Below, one piece after another: positions 1-31,235 of a stretch of DNA of 32,403 nucleotides; positions within the stretch are counted from its first letter, which is position 1, and each line of letters begins with the position of its first letter. The notes under the pieces are model-generated. The model was not told the DNA's origin, did not search any database, and saw only the letters and a program-made list of their open reading frames with translations. The DNA is from Chitinophaga pinensis (GTDB lineage Bacteria > Bacteroidota > Bacteroidia > UBA4408): contig CAMBZU010000039.1 of assembly GCA_945872355.1 (NCBI GenBank), forward strand, positions 1-32,403, in the 5' to 3' direction. Both the position numbers and the translations under genes were made by a program.

Positions 1-1
1 C

Positions 2-1009
2 ACCATCAATACCGTTAGTGCCATTTGTACCTGGGGCTCCGTCAATACCATTGGTTCCGTTTATACCATCCAAACCATTTATTCCATCAATACCGTTTGT
101 GCCATTTGCACCAGGAGCGCCATCAATTCCATTCGTTCCGTTTATTCCAGAAGCACCATCCACACCGTTTGTGCCGTTAATACCATCAACACCGTTAGTG
201 CCATTAGCACCAGGTGCACCATCAATTCCGTTAGTGCCATTTACTCCATTAGTACCAGGTGCACCGTCAATTCCATTTATTCCATCAATACCATTTGTAC
301 CGGGAGCACCATCAATACCATTGGTTCCATCAACACCGTTAGTACCATCAATACCATTAATTCCAAGAGCACCATTGCAAACATATTGAATAAGGTTAAT
401 ATTTACTTCACTTAAATCAAGGACTCCATTTGCATTATCATCTATGCCTGTCTCTATTTTTATACCTCCATTTGCACAATTAGCACTAGGTGGTTCAACT
501 ATAGGTTTAATTAATGAGTTCTTACCATTAGAAGATGCATTTCCCGAATTTAATGCATAGAAGGCATACGGAACTGCCATAAATTGCTGTATACTCATTA
601 ATAGAAAGCTTCCATTATTACGAATATCAATTTCTACCTTTAAAAACTGATTGGCATTTGACCATGGAATATCAATTAAAGCTGAATGTGCACCATTTGG
701 TGAAACTGTGCCTTCGCCAATAACTAATGAAAACAAACCATGTTGGTCCGTTAAAGTAGTATGGGTTTCTTCATACAAGACTTGCCCGGTGGTACTTCCA
801 CTTAAAATACTAAACCTTACAGCAATAGTATTTTCAGCTATAGGTTTACCAGAATAATCAATTCCTGCAATTTCAATTCCTTTTTCATCTATTGCAATAG
901 CTTGATAATTTATTCCGCGCAATTGCCCAAAAGATTGCTGACTTAGGAAGCAAGTGATAACAATAATTAGACAGAAAATTATTTTTTTAAGGTTTAGCGT
1001 TTTAGCCAT
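2..1009 (-). CDS. Collagen-like repeat surface protein, C-terminus cut by window edge
   Basis: The gene is open from ATG at 1009 to the left edge (336 codons), so the C-terminus is missing. Residues 1-28 look like a signal peptide ending in SFGQ. Residues 30-155 match a module common in Bacteroidota surface proteins (begins LRGINYQAIA, ends QQFMAVPYAFYAL). Residues 178-212 form a short Cys-bounded module holding a textbook EF-hand-like loop (DDNANGVLDLSE, 190-201), probably calcium binding. From about residue 213 on there are roughly 40 Gly-X-Y triplets of the GTNGIDG / GAPGTNG type, rich in Asn and Asp with little proline. The start overlaps the end of the upstream barrel gene by 16 bases, so the two are probably cotranscribed. 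An exported fibrous or adhesive role is an inference; the module identification is from memory of the family. Confidence 0.85.
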   Translation of the reverse strand, partial: MAKTLNLKKIIFCLIIVITCFLSQQSFGQLRGINYQAIAIDEKGIEIAGIDYSGKPIAENTIAVRFSILSGSTTGQVLYEETHTTLTDQHGLFSLVIGEGTVSPNGAHSALIDIPWSNANQFLKVEIDIRNNGSFLLMSIQQFMAVPYAFYALNSGNASSNGKNSLIKPIVEPPSANCANGGIKIETGIDDNANGVLDLSEVNINLIQYVCNGALGINGIDGTNGVDGTNGIDGAPGTNGIDGINGIDGAPGTNGVNGTNGIDGAPGANGTNGVDGINGTNGVDGASGINGTNGIDGAPGANGTNGIDGINGLDGINGTNGIDGAPGTNGTNGIDG

Positions 1010-2999: not shown

Positions 3000-3072
<73 letters not shown>

Positions 3073-12471: not shown

Positions 12472-13920
12472 TTACTTATTTACAACTACTTTAGTAAATA
12501 TATTTTGTGTGTTGCTTTGTATATGAACTAAATAAATTCCTTCGTTTAAGTCATTGGTATTTACAACCAATGTTGCATTTAAAGATTTCATTTGTTTAAT
12601 TGTTCTGCCAGACAAATCACTAATTGAAACCACTGTTTCTTCACTTAAATTATTGATTAAAAAACTTTCTTTTGCAGGATTTGGATAAATAGTAATTTCC
12701 TTATTGTTATTGTATTTTATTCCAACAACAGCCGGTTCAAAAGTTAAAGTGTATTGACGCATGGTGGTTGCCGCTGGTGTACCATTATCGGTAGCAGTTA
12801 CTGTTAAAGTTAAATCAGTAGTAGTAGTGCTTGGCGTGTTAACATCTACAAGGTATTTATGATTCCCTAAACTATATAAAGTTGTTACCGTAAAGTCTGT
12901 AAATCCGCCCATATCAAAGGTGGCATAAGCATCTTGATTTTGTTCACCAGAAAGCACCATCATGGCATATTGAATAGTATCGCCTGGTAATAACATAATA
13001 GTATCGCACATATTGCTTACTAAAATTGGATCAACATTGGTACTGTTGGTATCTGTACAAGCATTAAAATAAAACTGTTGATCATCTAACCAATTAATAC
13101 CATCAGCATTAGCAAATGGGCCATCATAAACATTGGTTGAGTCGCCAAATCTTCCCATTTGAATAAATGAACTTCCATCTCCTTCGTTTGCACCAACGGT
13201 GCTTGGTGTACCTCCAAAACCGTTAATACCACCAGATGCAGCTCCTGTTGTCCAATCCATGTTATTATAGCAATATCCAACGTTGGTTCCGGCAGGTAAA
13301 ATTGGGTCAGTGCCATCAGTAATAATTAATTGAAAATCATTTAATTTATCACTTGCCAACGGAAAATATCCAACATGATCCCATCTCACAATTAAACTTG
13401 TTGGTGTAATTTTGTAATACACTAAACCACTGGCACTATCTCTTGTATCAACATCTCCCCAAAAAGGTGCAACCATCGTATAATTTGAACTAGGGAAAGA
13501 GTCTGATGTAAAAGTAAAATACTGACTTACAAATGATATGTTACCATTGTTGTTGATAAATAAACTATCGTAAGTTGAACCATATAAGCAGAAATTAAAA
13601 GGTATTGCAATTGCTGGTGAACTTCCATCATCATTTCTATAATCTGGCGCTATACCAATATTAAATGGAACTACCGTAAAAGTACTATCTAGTGGAACAA
13701 TACAATCGCATGCTGCATTGGCTCTATTTTGAGGACTACCACTATATGGTACAGGATTTTGAATAACTGTATTTACAGGTGGGGGCAATACTGTATAATT
13801 ACCCAGCAAGTTTTGACTTTTTAATTGTTGATAAAGTGGACTGTTTAATTGCACCGTATTTTGCTGCGCAAAACCAATAATACCAAGCAAACTAAATGTT
13901 AAAGTAAAAATTTTTTTCAT
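12472..13920 (-). CDS. Secreted nidogen-like (NIDO) domain protein, T9SS type A
   Basis: The 482-residue protein has a signal peptide (1-18, ending GFA). A NIDO-like domain spans about 75-290: NNNGNISFVSQYF, MVAPFWGDVDTRDSASGLVYYKI, LIVRWDHVGYFP and KLNDFQLIITDG are the family's core strands. A beta-sandwich region follows (about 295-395). The type A sorting domain runs from about 405 (ITIYPNPAKESFLINN ... NIFTKVVVNK). NIDO domains occur in extracellular matrix and adhesion proteins, so a surface-adhesion role is plausible but is inference. It has its own promoter candidate and terminator, so it is probably monocistronic. Confidence 0.87.
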   Translation of the reverse strand: MKKIFTLTFSLLGIIGFAQQNTVQLNSPLYQQLKSQNLLGNYTVLPPPVNTVIQNPVPYSGSPQNRANAACDCIVPLDSTFTVVPFNIGIAPDYRNDDGSSPAIAIPFNFCLYGSTYDSLFINNNGNISFVSQYFTFTSDSFPSSNYTMVAPFWGDVDTRDSASGLVYYKITPTSLIVRWDHVGYFPLASDKLNDFQLIITDGTDPILPAGTNVGYCYNNMDWTTGAASGGINGFGGTPSTVGANEGDGSSFIQMGRFGDSTNVYDGPFANADGINWLDDQQFYFNACTDTNSTNVDPILVSNMCDTIMLLPGDTIQYAMMVLSGEQNQDAYATFDMGGFTDFTVTTLYSLGNHKYLVDVNTPSTTTTDLTLTVTATDNGTPAATTMRQYTLTFEPAVVGIKYNNNKEITIYPNPAKESFLINNLSEETVVSISDLSGRTIKQMKSLNATLVVNTNDLNEGIYLVHIQSNTQNIFTKVVVNK

Positions 13921-18845: not shown

Positions 18846-19793
18846 TTATAATCCAAGCTGTGCCGAAATTTCGAGCATTTTTAAGATAGAATTTTCTGCT
18901 TTTTTTCTTAGATTTTCATCCATAATTATTTCAGGCGTTTCATTTTTTAAACAGGCATATAATTTTTCCAAGGTGTTTAACTTCATATGTGGGCAATCGT
19001 TGCAAGCACAATTATTATTTGGTGGCGCCGGAATTAGCGTTTTATGTGGCGCACGTTTAGCCATTTCATGCAATATGCCTGTTTCAGTAGCTACAATAAA
19101 TTCTTTTGCATTGCTTTTAACCACAAAATTCAATAAAGCAGTTGTACTACCAATAAAATCTGCCATTTCTAAAACAGGTTCTTCACATTCAGGGTGTGCT
19201 ATAAGTAAAGCGTTTGGATGTTTATGTTTTAGTTGTGTGATTTTCTTTACCGAAAAAATTTCGTGAACCATGCAACTGCCATCCCAAAGCAACATATTTC
19301 TGCCTGTTATTTTATTCACATAGCTGCCTAAATTTTTATCTGGTGCAAAAATAATAGCTTGATCTTTTGGCAAACTATTAACAATTTGAACAGCATTACT
19401 ACTTGTACAAACAATATCAGTAAGTGCCTTTATTTCAGCTGTACAGTTTATATAACTTATCACTAAATGATCAGGGTTTGCTTCTTTAAATTTTCTGAAA
19501 GCATCTGGCGTACAGCTATCGGCCAAGGAACAACCAGCTTTTAAATCGGGAAGTAAAACTTTTTTTTGAGGACATAATATTTTTGCTGTTTCAGCCATAA
19601 AATGTACGCCTGCAAAAACAATAATATCCGCTTCTGTTTTTGCTGCTTGTTGCGACAATCCTAAGCTATCGCCAATATAATCAGCCACATCTTGAATATC
19701 GCCCTCTTGGTAGTAATGTGCCAAAATAATGGCATTCTTTGCTACCTTTAATTTTTTTATTTCTTCAAAAATATCTGTCGCTATTAATTCCAT
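18846..19793 (-). CDS. nadA: Quinolinate synthase NadA
   Basis: The 315-residue protein is quinolinate synthase, which condenses iminoaspartate with dihydroxyacetone phosphate using a [4Fe-4S] cluster in de novo NAD synthesis. The N-terminus has [28 protein letters not shown]. The probable cluster cysteines are C88 ([10 protein letters not shown]), C174 (WDGSCMVHE) and C267 ([18 protein letters not shown]). The other substrate-binding segments ([54 protein letters not shown]) are intact. Length and motif order are normal. The partner genes nadB and nadC are not in the window. It is transcribed leftward from the AT-rich gap and followed closely by the MORN-repeat gene. Confidence 0.97.
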
Positions 19794-20435
19794 TTTATTT
19801 TTTCTTCCATTTTTCTGAGCACAAATATCAACCTAATTTTTAATCCAACTTATTTTTTATTTTTCAGCTATCAACATTCAATAACTATATTATTATTATT
19901 AAATTTCTTTTAAAGAAAATATGTTATTATTAATAGCCTGTTAGTATTGTTCATTTGTTTGTTGAACAACGCGTGTAAATGTAATTTATTAAATATTGAT
20001 AACAGTTTTTTAACCATTAATTATTAGCTAATCTATTTAAAATCAATTATTGCTATACTTTATTAACACTTTGTTCATACTACTTAAGTTGAATAACTTT
20101 CATTAAAGTATAATACCTTTTTTGTGTACAACCTTGTTTATTTTTTTCAATATGTAATGGCTAACTAAATTAGGAATTACATATTTTTTTTTCATACAAG
20201 CAGTGCTTTATCTTTTGCAACAATACTTTTCAGTAAATGTTTTTCTTTATCAACAGCTATTAACAATTACATTGTTTATAAACCATAAATTTTAATATGT
20301 ACTTGATTATCAACAATATTTAGTAGCAATAATTTTAAATAGTTATTTGTTAATACTATTTTTAAATGTTCATGTTTAGTAATATGAAGCCAATTAACTT
20401 TGTACAAACACATTATTAATTTTACTCTTAGTTTT
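19794..20435. other. AT-rich divergent intergenic region, speculative oriC
   Basis: This 642-base gene-free region separates nadA (left, minus) from rpiB (right, plus). It is extremely AT-rich. It contains two identical 9-mers TTATCAACA (20247-20255 and 20307-20315, same strand, 60 bases apart), one base away from the DnaA box TTATCCACA. TGTTCAT occurs three times. A candidate rpiB promoter box lies at 20395-20402. Right of it every gene is on the plus strand; left of it most are on the minus strand. Two parS-like sites and mnmG lie about 10 kb to the right. These features suit an origin, but dnaA is absent and no perfect DnaA-box cluster is seen. Confidence 0.3.
20395..20402 (+). promoter_or_regulatory. 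Candidate -7 box for rpiB
   Basis: TAACTTTG matches TAnnTTTG exactly, 33 bases upstream of the rpiB ATG. The -33 region has only a weak TTT. Confidence 0.5.
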
Positions 20436-20864
20436 ATGAAAATTGCTGTAGGAGCAGATCATGCTGGTTTTGAAGCCAAAGAAAAAATTATTACTTATCT
20501 CAAAGATAATAAAATTGAATTTCATGATTTCGGTACTTATAATGATCAAAGTGTTGATTATCCAAATTTTGCTCATCCAGTAGCATTGGCTGTTGAAAAT
20601 AAAGAATTTGATTTAGGTATATTAATTTGTGGAAGTGGGCAGGGTATGAATATAACTGCTAATAAACACCAAGGAATAAGATCTGCTTTATGTTGGAGTG
20701 TTGAAATAGCAAGTTTAAGTAAAAAGCATAATGATGCGAATGTGCTTGCAATACCAGGTCGATTTTTAAGTGAAACATTGATAATAGAAATAGTAGAAAC
20801 TTTTTTAAATACTGATTTTGAAGGTGGCAGACATGCAAATCGTACACAAAAAATTCCTTGTTAA
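20436..20864 (+). CDS. rpiB: Ribose-5-phosphate isomerase B
   Basis: I take ATG 20436 (142 residues), where the family's MKIAVGADHAGFEAKE start lies. RpiB interconverts ribose-5-phosphate and ribulose-5-phosphate in the pentose phosphate pathway. The active-site elements are present: D8-H9 in GADHAG, the VDYPNFAHPVA segment, the catalytic Cys65 in GILICGSGQGM, H99 in KKHNDANVLAIPGR, and the final GGRHANRTQKI. The length is normal. The LutB-like gene follows 14 bases after the stop, so the two are likely cotranscribed. Confidence 0.96.
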   Translation: MKIAVGADHAGFEAKEKIITYLKDNKIEFHDFGTYNDQSVDYPNFAHPVALAVENKEFDLGILICGSGQGMNITANKHQGIRSALCWSVEIASLSKKHNDANVLAIPGRFLSETLIIEIVETFLNTDFEGGRHANRTQKIPC

Positions 20865-28289: not shown

Positions 28290-30152
28290 ATGTTTAATAA
28301 ATATGATGTTATTGTTGTAGGTGCAGGCCATGCTGGATGTGAAGCAGCAGCGGCAGCAGCCAACATGGGCTCTAAGGTGTTGTTGGTTACTATGAATATG
28401 CAAACCATTGCGCAAATGAGCTGTAATCCAGCCATGGGTGGAATTGCAAAAGGTCAAATCGTGCGCGAAATTGATGCTTTAGGCGGCTATAGTGGCATTG
28501 TTTCGGACAATTCGGCTATTCAGTTTAGAATGTTGAACAAGTCAAAAGGAGCGGCCATGTGGAGCCCAAGGACCCAAAACGATAGAGCACGTTTTGCCGA
28601 AGAGTGGCGTTTAATGATAGAGCAAACCCCTAATGTTGATTTTTGGCAAGACAATGTAAGTGCGCTGATTATCGAAAATAATAAAGTAGCGGGCGTTGTT
28701 ACTGGTATGGGAATTAGCATTAAAGCAAGTGCTGTAATTATTACAAGTGGTACCTTTTTAAACGGAATTATACATATTGGTGAAAAACAATTTGGCGGCG
28801 GAAGAACAGGTGAAAAAGCATCGCATGGTATTACCGAGCAGTTGATTGCTTTAGGTTTTGAAGCCGGAAGAATGAAAACGGGAACACCTCCACGCATTGA
28901 TGGCAGAAGTTTAGATTATTCAAAAATGGAAGTGCAAGGAGGCGATGAAAATCCTGCTAAGTTTTCATTTAGTAATACCAAAGCACTAACACATCAGCTG
29001 CCTTGTTATGTTACCTACACCAACGCAATTGTGCATGATATTTTAAGAACAGGGTTTGATAAGTCGCCTATGTATCAAGGTCGCATCTCAGGCAGTGGTC
29101 CAAGATATTGCCCTTCAATTGAAGATAAAGTAACGCGTTTTGCCGAAAGAGACCGTCACCAATTATTTGTGGAGCCAGAGGGTTGGAAAACAGTGGAAAT
29201 ATACTTGAATGGATTTAGCAGTTCTTTACCCGAAGAGGTGCAACAAAAGGCCTTGGTGAATATTCCTGGATTTGAACATGCAAAGATGTTTAGACCCGGG
29301 TATGCGATCGAGTATGATTATTTTCCGCCAACGCAGTTAAAACTAAGTTTAGAAACAAAGCTAATAGCAGGTTTATATTTCGCAGGACAGATCAATGGAA
29401 CTACCGGCTATGAAGAAGCTGCTTGTCAAGGTTTAATGGCAGGAATTAATGCGCATTTAAAGTTAACAGCACAAGAACCTTTTATATTAGATCGCTCAGA
29501 TGCCTATATTGGCGTTTTAATAGACGATTTGGTAACCAAGGGCACCGATGAGCCTTATCGTATGTTTACATCGCGTGCAGAGTACAGAATTTTATTAAGG
29601 CAAGATAATGCAGATACCCGTTTAACACCATTAGGTTTTAAAATAGGTTTGGCAGGAAAAGACAGAATGGATAGGGTTGAACAAAAGGTGAAGCATGTTA
29701 ATGAGGTGGTTTCCTTTATTAAAAACGAAAGTATTGCACCCGATGAAATAAATGATTTATTGAATGCGAGAGAAAGCGCAAGTATCAGTCAAAAAGTAAA
29801 AATGTTTGGTATTTTATCGAGGCCTAACATTGATTTGATGCTTTTTAAAAACAATATTGAAAGGATCCAACATTCATTAATGGCTTATGATGCTGAAGAA
29901 CTTGAGCAGGCAGAAATTTTAGTGAAATACGAAGGTTATATTCAAAAGGAAAAAGAACAGGTTGAAAAGCAAGATCGATTAGAGTCTCTAGTGTTGCATG
30001 ATGACTTTGATTATGCAAGATTGACTTCTTTAGGTACAGAGGCTAGAGAAAAGTTGAATAAGGTAAGACCAAAAACTATTGGGCAAGCAGCTCGAATAAG
30101 TGGAATAACACCTTCGGACATATCAATATTAATGGTTTATTTGGGAAGATAG
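28290..30152 (+). CDS. mnmG: tRNA uridine 5-carboxymethylaminomethyl modification enzyme MnmG (GidA)
   Basis: The 620-residue protein is MnmG, the FAD-dependent partner of MnmE that modifies wobble U34 of certain tRNAs. The N-terminal FAD-binding motif VIVVGAGHAGCEAA is followed by the family signatures MSCNPAMGGIAKGQIVREIDALGG, MWSPRTQNDR, TGTFLNGIIHIGEK-type segment, GRMKTGTPPRIDGRS and GTTGYEEAACQGLMAGINA. The C-terminal helical domain ends KVRPKTIGQAARISGITPSDISILMVYLGR. The length is normal and nothing is missing. mnmE is not in the window. In many bacteria mnmG lies near the chromosome origin, and here two parS-like sites follow it directly. Confidence 0.98.
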   Translation: MFNKYDVIVVGAGHAGCEAAAAAANMGSKVLLVTMNMQTIAQMSCNPAMGGIAKGQIVREIDALGGYSGIVSDNSAIQFRMLNKSKGAAMWSPRTQNDRARFAEEWRLMIEQTPNVDFWQDNVSALIIENNKVAGVVTGMGISIKASAVIITSGTFLNGIIHIGEKQFGGGRTGEKASHGITEQLIALGFEAGRMKTGTPPRIDGRSLDYSKMEVQGGDENPAKFSFSNTKALTHQLPCYVTYTNAIVHDILRTGFDKSPMYQGRISGSGPRYCPSIEDKVTRFAERDRHQLFVEPEGWKTVEIYLNGFSSSLPEEVQQKALVNIPGFEHAKMFRPGYAIEYDYFPPTQLKLSLETKLIAGLYFAGQINGTTGYEEAACQGLMAGINAHLKLTAQEPFILDRSDAYIGVLIDDLVTKGTDEPYRMFTSRAEYRILLRQDNADTRLTPLGFKIGLAGKDRMDRVEQKVKHVNEVVSFIKNESIAPDEINDLLNARESASISQKVKMFGILSRPNIDLMLFKNNIERIQHSLMAYDAEELEQAEILVKYEGYIQKEKEQVEKQDRLESLVLHDDFDYARLTSLGTEAREKLNKVRPKTIGQAARISGITPSDISILMVYLGR

Positions 30153-30158
30153 TGTCAT

Positions 30159-30174
30159 TGTTCCACGTGAAACA
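30159..30174. promoter_or_regulatory. parS-like ParB binding site 1
   Basis: TGTTCCACGTGAAACA equals the Bacillus subtilis parS 16-mer and fits the broad bacterial parS consensus TGTTnCACGTGAAACA. It lies 6 bases after the mnmG stop codon. Confidence 0.85.
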
Positions 30175-30331
30175 ATATATTTAGGAGCTTGATTTCCTTC
30201 ATATTTTCAGCATTTAATATAGTTTAATACAAGTTATTGGAATTGCTAGCGTTGCAATTGTTGTTCTAAAACACAGCTTTTTACTCGAGTAATGATAGAT
30301 TAATTTGATTTTTAATAAATAAAAACTTCAA

Positions 30332-30347
30332 GGTTCCACGTGGAACA
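30332..30347. promoter_or_regulatory. parS-like ParB binding site 2
   Basis: The site contains the perfect 14-base palindrome GTTCCACGTGGAAC (30333-30346). It differs from site 1 at two of 16 positions, and the centres are 173 bases apart. It ends 9 bases before the methyltransferase ATG. Confidence 0.75.
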
Positions 30348-30356
30348 TCATAAAAT

Positions 30357-31235
30357 ATGGAGAAACTAACAGCATGTCCGGTTTGCAAAAACAACGCATT
30401 TTCAGACTTTTTAACCTGCAAAGACTACACAGCCAGTAAAGAAAGTTTTAACTTGGTTACTTGCAATGCTTGCAAATTTGTGTTTACAAACCCCCGTCCT
30501 AAGCAAGATGAAATTGGCAGGTACTATCAAGTAGAGAATTATATTTCACACACAGGAACCCAAACAGGTTTGGTTAATAAACTATATCATTTTGCAAGAA
30601 AGTTTACTTTAAAGCAAAAATTAAAACTTGTAAATAGCCTATCAAAAAAAGGTAGCTTGTTAGATATTGGATGCGGTACTGGCAATTTTTTACAAGTAGT
30701 TAAAAACGATAATTGGAAGGTAACAGGGGTAGAACCAGATCCTGCAGCAAGAAAATTAGCCATTGAAACTTGTGGAGAAAACATTCACGAAGAAGCATTT
30801 CTTAATCAAGAAAATATAAACAAATATGATATCATTACCATGTGGCATGTGTTAGAGCATGTGCATGAACTGGATAAAAGATTGCAGCAGTTAAAAAAAT
30901 TATTACAACCAGGTGGTCGTTTAATTGTGGCTGTTCCTAACTGCGCTTCAAAAGATGCAGCGCATTACCAAGCATTTTGGGGCGCCTATGATGTGCCTCG
31001 CCATTTGTATCATTTTACACCCAAAGACATTAAAAAACTATTTGAAAATAATTTGTTTGAAATAGAAAAAATCCTGCCAATGAAACTCGATGCTTTTTAT
31101 GTTTCTATTTTAAGCGAGAAGTACAAAGGTGGTAATATGCTATCGGGAATTTGGCAAGGATTGCGCTCAAATTTACACGCAGCCAATAATTTTGGCACCT
31201 ATAGCAGTCAAATGTACATCATTAAACACAAATAG
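30357..31235 (+). CDS. Class I SAM-dependent methyltransferase with N-terminal zinc-ribbon-like motif
   Basis: The 292-residue protein begins with two Cys pairs (C7-x2-C10 in ACPVCKN; C35-x2-C38 in TCNACKF) that probably form a small zinc site. The Rossmann methyltransferase domain follows: motif I SLLDIGCGTGNFLQVV (about 99-114), the acidic GVEPDPAARKLA segment, YDIITMWHVLEHVHE, and LLQPGGRLIVAVPN. A C-terminal part with YDVPRHLYHFTPKDIKKLFE is typical of this UbiG-like group. The methyl acceptor is unknown. It directly follows mnmG across the parS pair, and site 2 may overlap its promoter region. Confidence 0.88.
   Translation: MEKLTACPVCKNNAFSDFLTCKDYTASKESFNLVTCNACKFVFTNPRPKQDEIGRYYQVENYISHTGTQTGLVNKLYHFARKFTLKQKLKLVNSLSKKGSLLDIGCGTGNFLQVVKNDNWKVTGVEPDPAARKLAIETCGENIHEEAFLNQENINKYDIITMWHVLEHVHELDKRLQQLKKLLQPGGRLIVAVPNCASKDAAHYQAFWGAYDVPRHLYHFTPKDIKKLFENNLFEIEKILPMKLDAFYVSILSEKYKGGNMLSGIWQGLRSNLHAANNFGTYSSQMYIIKHK

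Follow-up and report, generated by a model that had tools for sequence, protein, structure and literature searches.

Putative parS sites beside mnmG, near a candidate replication origin, in Chitinophaga pinensis

In studied ParABS systems, parS serves as the loading site of ParB dimers, which then take up CTP, close and slide, and ParA parts the complexes. The published parS consensus is TGTTNCACGTGAAACA for B. subtilis and TGTTCCACGTGGAACG for Myxococcus (PMC7022226). According to a Hi-C report, parS clusters are found at the origins of two Bacteroidetes, and these origins are not tied to dnaA (PMC10197239). More generally, oriC is often far from dnaA in this phylum (PMC4755523).

The window analyzed here comprises 32,403 bp (contig C39, positions 1-32403) of the host assembly, G000, which totals 3.40 Mb in 133 contigs and is 96.5% complete. 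It carries two palindromes between mnmG and a methyltransferase gene, and it also contains a candidate oriC (Table 1).

Table 1. Coordinates of the sites, genes and other features considered in this study (in the window unless a contig is named)
Feature	Position	Strand	Remarks
ORF	1-1009	-	Runs off contig end; collagen-like GTNGIDG repeat region
tRNA gene	3000-3072	-	Rfam RF00005, 59.9 bits
nadA	18846-19793	-	
Candidate oriC	19794-20438	.	645-bp intergenic, 21% GC, between divergent nadA (-) and rpiB (+)
DnaA-box-like TTATTAACA	20060-20068	+	
DnaA-box-like TTATCAACA	20247-20255	+	Position nearly equal in G003
DnaA-box-like TTATAAACA	20273-20281	-	
DnaA-box-like TTATCAACA	20307-20315	+	
rpiB	from 20439	+	
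mnmG (gidA)	28290-30152	+	Pfam GIDA 4e-163; TIGR00136; usual parS neighbor in class
Putative parS site 1, TGTTCCACGTGAAACA	30159-30174	.	Exact sequence; starts 7 bp past mnmG stop codon
Putative parS site 2, GGTTCCACGTGGAACA	30332-30347	.	Ends 10 bp ahead of methyltransferase start codon
Perfect 14-bp palindrome GTTCCACGTGGAAC	30333-30346		Contained in site 2
SAM-dependent methyltransferase gene	30357-31235	+	Pfam Methyltransf_23 1.9e-28; conserved downstream neighbor, synteny in many loci
parA	contig C61, 5855-6661		Adjoins parB
parB	contig C61, 6664-7584		ParB_N + HTH_ParB domains (Pfam)

Two palindromes in one intergenic gap

The end of mnmG and the start of the next ORF delimit a gap of 204 bases, and both palindromes lie inside it. 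The sequence-only reading had reported the B. subtilis parS 16-mer and the 14-bp palindrome from a single gap directly after mnmG; both were found at exactly the positions given, and the ORF coordinates bear out the shared gap. Site 1 agrees with the published B. subtilis consensus, the core of site 2 is the core of the Myxococcus consensus, and both sites have the sequence expected of chromosomal ParABS parS (TGTTNCACGTGAAACA/GTTYCACGTGRAAC).

The genomic copies were few and clustered. The exact 14-mer GTTYCACGTGRAAC occurred twice in the whole assembly, both times here and 173 bp apart, where about 0.03 copies are expected at the size and composition of the host genome, and the reversed-pattern control had no match in the assembly. 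The earlier reading had named hits spread evenly around the genome as evidence against parS; no such spread was seen, exact matches being confined to the gap. With up to two mismatches to the 16-mer, three further places in the assembly were matched, compared with one for the reversed-pattern control. These near-matches (C1:2933, C20:8041 and C17:7163) were set aside, as they were single-orientation, had an altered CACGTG core and stood at approximately the control level.

The start of site 1 so soon after the mnmG stop codon would also fit a piece of the mnmG terminator, and the palindromes might act as RNA hairpins. As no terminator-like site was found within 29900-30700, the RNA fold was no better than that of shuffles (z = -0.18) with the palindrome not used as a hairpin, and no Rfam match was obtained at the sites, this explanation was judged extremely improbable and dropped. 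The palindromes very probably constitute a pair of ParB-binding (parS) sites.

Segregation and condensin proteins

Absence of parB from the genome, which would have spoken against parS, was not encountered: contig C61 carries an intact parA-parB operon. The best solved-structure match of its ParB was a ParB family protein (2e-51), and the alignment with solved ParB and Noc structures extended over 200 residues. The motifs QPRT, GERRFR (GERRxR) and ENVQR (ENxQR) were kept, and equivalents of Caulobacter R173, N178, G201 and R204, the roles of which are known (PMC7383237), were present, such that the ParB encoded beside parA has the residues for binding CTP and for reading parS. The positions equivalent to 173 and 201, which separate ParB from Noc, are R and G; this, together with the retained motifs, indicates that the protein should read parS and not a Noc site. 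The locus does not fit a Noc/NBS system, which would have Noc-type specificity residues (Q173, K179/K184, R201) and ATTTCCCGGGAAAT-type sites, whereas this ParB has R and G at 173 and 201 and the sites have the parS core. Among the relatives, G040 and G031 had exact parS sites, yet searches of both assemblies recovered no parA and no parB.

In profile searches of the host assembly, Smc was not detected at E<=1e-60, nor was ScpA at E<=1e-3, and both were also absent from the seven other genomes of the family in the set (G001-G007). Smc was detected in 6 and ScpA in 7 of 45 Bacteroidia genomes, in nearly identical sets of genomes. In these searches with Smc and ScpA profiles, the 96.5% complete host assembly showed neither of the proteins that a Smc-ScpAB loading site calls for, and a Smc-loading role is therefore unlikely. 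The Hi-C work likewise describes Smc and ScpA as absent from two other Bacteroidetes (PMC10197239). The likeliest role of the sites, and the sense in which the ParB loading centre proposed by the sequence-only reading is best taken, is nucleation of ParB for ParA-driven origin segregation. The wide occurrence of parS without Smc-ScpAB makes testable what ParB-parS does in bacteria without the usual condensin, a question raised for Bacteroides in the same work (PMC10197239).

Conservation beside mnmG in the Bacteroidia

The exact 14-mer was present in 103 of 119 class-level relatives, typically in two copies. The surroundings of mnmG were read in 75 Bacteroidia genomes, 64 of which had an exact site; at least one such site lay within ~4 kb of mnmG in 58 of these, usually 10 to 200 bp off, and all sites did so in 54. 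Counted as sites, 112/124 in the fetched genomes were within ~4 kb of mnmG, a count that excludes G040 and G106, where the sites form multi-copy arrays over several contigs. A second collection, partly overlapping the first and weighted to close relatives, had an exact site no more than 1 kb from mnmG in 64 of its 80 mnmG loci. No description of parS adjoining mnmG was found in the literature, and an earlier mention in a comparative survey (Livny 2007) is possible.

In 5 of the 16 genomes without an exact site, mnmG was absent from the assembly (G007, G042, G065 and G110) or a fragment (G099), and loss of both from those assemblies is expected if mnmG and parS are linked. One-mismatch sites were found at the equivalent place in G017, G049, G057, G087, G093, G104 and G114, none with an exact site, and about ten relatives had nothing better than a one-mismatch site near mnmG. 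Drifted sites at or near mnmG occurred in three lineages, G057/G093 (L091, L106), G087/G049 (L105, L084) and G017/G097 (L053, L107), in the forms GTTTCACATGAAAC, GTTTCATGTGAAAC and ATTTCACGTGAAAC, with no exact parS left and parB present. Coevolution of ParB with drifted sites (GTTTCACATGAAAC, ATTTCACGTGAAAC) was not apparent, as the R173 and G201 equivalents were unchanged in the ParBs aligned, a set without those of G087, G004 and G028; there was therefore no sign of a specificity switch.

As a separate observation, G040, an assembly listed as 100% complete, had 12 exact parS cores, of which many were repeated in tandem at contig ends with a 99-bp unit (L114, on contig C24 of G040, 13203-13809 in record coordinates; also L076, L115 and L116), and a further copy in a repeat common to two contig ends.

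The side of mnmG occupied by the sites varied. They were downstream in the host genus (23 and 99 bp past mnmG in G002), upstream in others, on both sides in several, and within mnmG itself in G001, G015 and G029. In G004, of the same family as the host, the parS pair at 128.3-128.5 kb of a 394-kb contig adjoined the methyltransferase ortholog, close to the skew minimum at 132.9 kb and 61 kb from mnmG at 189 kb. In G035, where mnmG is at 22.7 kb, sites at 67.6 and 69.1 kb were inside a flat skew minimum (50-80 kb), and in G014 parS and mnmG were 88 kb apart. The layouts of G004 and G035 indicate that parS follows the origin region, with mnmG usually, but not always, alongside.

These arrangements bear on two further explanations. 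The palindromes could be operators of a transcription factor controlling mnmG, the methyltransferase gene or both, rather than centromere sites, since site 2 is immediately upstream of the methyltransferase start codon and sites precede mnmG in many relatives. Against this, sites lie upstream of, downstream of and inside mnmG, and in G004 the pair is far from mnmG and still close to the skew minimum; moreover, the sequence is that of parS and the genome encodes a ParB to match, so this proposal appears very unlikely. As a side effect, ParB may influence expression locally. Alternatively, true parS sites could be functionally tied to mnmG, their most constant neighbor in the class, and their origin proximity could be a by-product of the location of mnmG. 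An equally small probability was given to this account, because in G004 and G035 parS is 45-61 kb from mnmG and closer to the skew minimum, G014 shows the still larger separation, and side and distance relative to mnmG vary freely among genera. Chromosomal parS sites that follow the origin region remained the preferred reading.

The origin region and comparison with described systems

In the complete or near-complete relatives G087 and G041, sampled GC skew turned from minus to plus close to mnmG. The turn fell between 1.38 and 1.47 Mb in G087, which has mnmG at 1.444 Mb beside a one-mismatch parS, and between 1.30 and 1.43 Mb in G041, which has mnmG/parS at 1.348 Mb. In the same two genomes dnaA was 0.31 and 0.43 Mb, and parB 0.67 and 0.73 Mb, from mnmG/parS. 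In the complete genome of G114, the skew minimum (~2.8-3.05 Mb) was away from mnmG (3.70 Mb), where the sites are degenerate; skew in this genome was weak and irregular, with several sign changes. Skew thus placed the sites near the origin in G087, G041 and G004, was compatible with this in G035 and inconsistent in G114. For the host itself, skew refers to the 32-kb contig of the fragmented assembly. The proposal of the sequence-only reading that the sites place the window near the origin is supported by the skew in G087 and G041, by the G004 layout and by the presence of a candidate oriC at a distance of 10 kb. As parAB and dnaA are not neighbors here, the sites locate the origin region and not parAB.

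Within the window, cumulative GC skew reached its minimum at 20427, and gene strand switches between nadA and rpiB, the genes flanking the candidate oriC. The usual DnaA box is TTATCCACA, of which TTATNAACA is a variant. Perfect TTATCCACA boxes, tried as an origin marker, clustered nowhere useful, and the regions upstream of rpiB were therefore compared by k-mers instead. In G003, G004 and G035 these regions were very AT-rich and were, on each stretch examined, the place where TTATNAACA-type motifs were densest. The gap in the host contained four TTATNAACA and zero TTATCCACA, all boxes being TTATNAACA variants. Because the motif had been picked from these four genomes, it was tested in 12 other rpiB-upstream regions, which are related to each other and so do not represent 12 independent trials; they contained 42 TTATNNACA, compared with 5.5 +/- 2.3 in dinucleotide shuffles, at similar spacing. 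All 42 were TTATNAACA, with A at position 6 constant (42/42). Many of these loci shared the gene order rpiB - gap - nadA - mnmG - parS - methyltransferase, and parS was ~3 kb from the rpiB-nadA gap in many of them, the 10 kb in the host genus being due to several intervening genes. The interval 19794-20438 is a candidate, and probable, replication origin with putative DnaA boxes.

By analogy with studied ParABS systems, ParB from the C61 operon would load at both sites, close into a CTP-bound clamp and slide onto flanking DNA, building a partition complex across the origin-proximal region, and ParA would separate the sister complexes soon after replication of the region, which probably starts ~10 kb leftward in the rpiB-nadA intergenic region. 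What we infer from these data is that ParB binds the sites and slides as a clamp, that segregation follows and that the origin fires at 19.8-20.4 kb. There is high confidence in the overall reading, namely that the palindromes are chromosomal parS at which ParB loads and slides and from which ParA segregates, with replication probably starting ~10 kb to the left.

The element itself is of a well-known kind; what is added is the class-wide mnmG-parS neighborhood, the persistence of parS at the skew minimum where mnmG is elsewhere, and the oriC candidate with variant DnaA boxes. Whether much of the Bacteroidia marks its origin by rpiB-oriC(TTATNAACA)-nadA-mnmG-parS-methyltransferase, with parAB and dnaA distant, and mostly manages without Smc-ScpAB, by ParA alone or an unrecognized condensin, is a generalization to which even odds were assigned. 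Bacteroidota origins are hard to locate because dnaA is usually not adjacent, and in most drafts and MAGs of the class the origin region could be marked by a short exact search for parS close to mnmG or the methyltransferase gene.

Compared with Myxococcus xanthus parS (TGTTCCACGTGGAACG), site 2 has the same fully symmetric core, GTTCCACGTGGAAC, whereas Myxococcus has 22 parS sites (PMC7022226) and two are present here. Bacteroides caecimuris and Muribaculum intestinale, of the same phylum but different families, share a parS cluster at the origin, an origin not systematically marked by dnaA and no known condensin (PMC10197239); an mnmG neighborhood is not known to have been described for them, while the host has its two sites in one 204-bp gap. 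With the chromosomal ParABS systems of B. subtilis, Caulobacter and Pseudomonas, the locus has in common the site sequence (TGTTNCACGTGAAACA), few clustered sites, origin proximity, and a parA-parB operon whose ParB has an HTH domain as well as a CTP-binding one. It differs from them in that parAB is on another contig (at least 0.3 Mb from mnmG in complete relatives), dnaA is usually distant, and Smc and ScpA were not found in the host genome.
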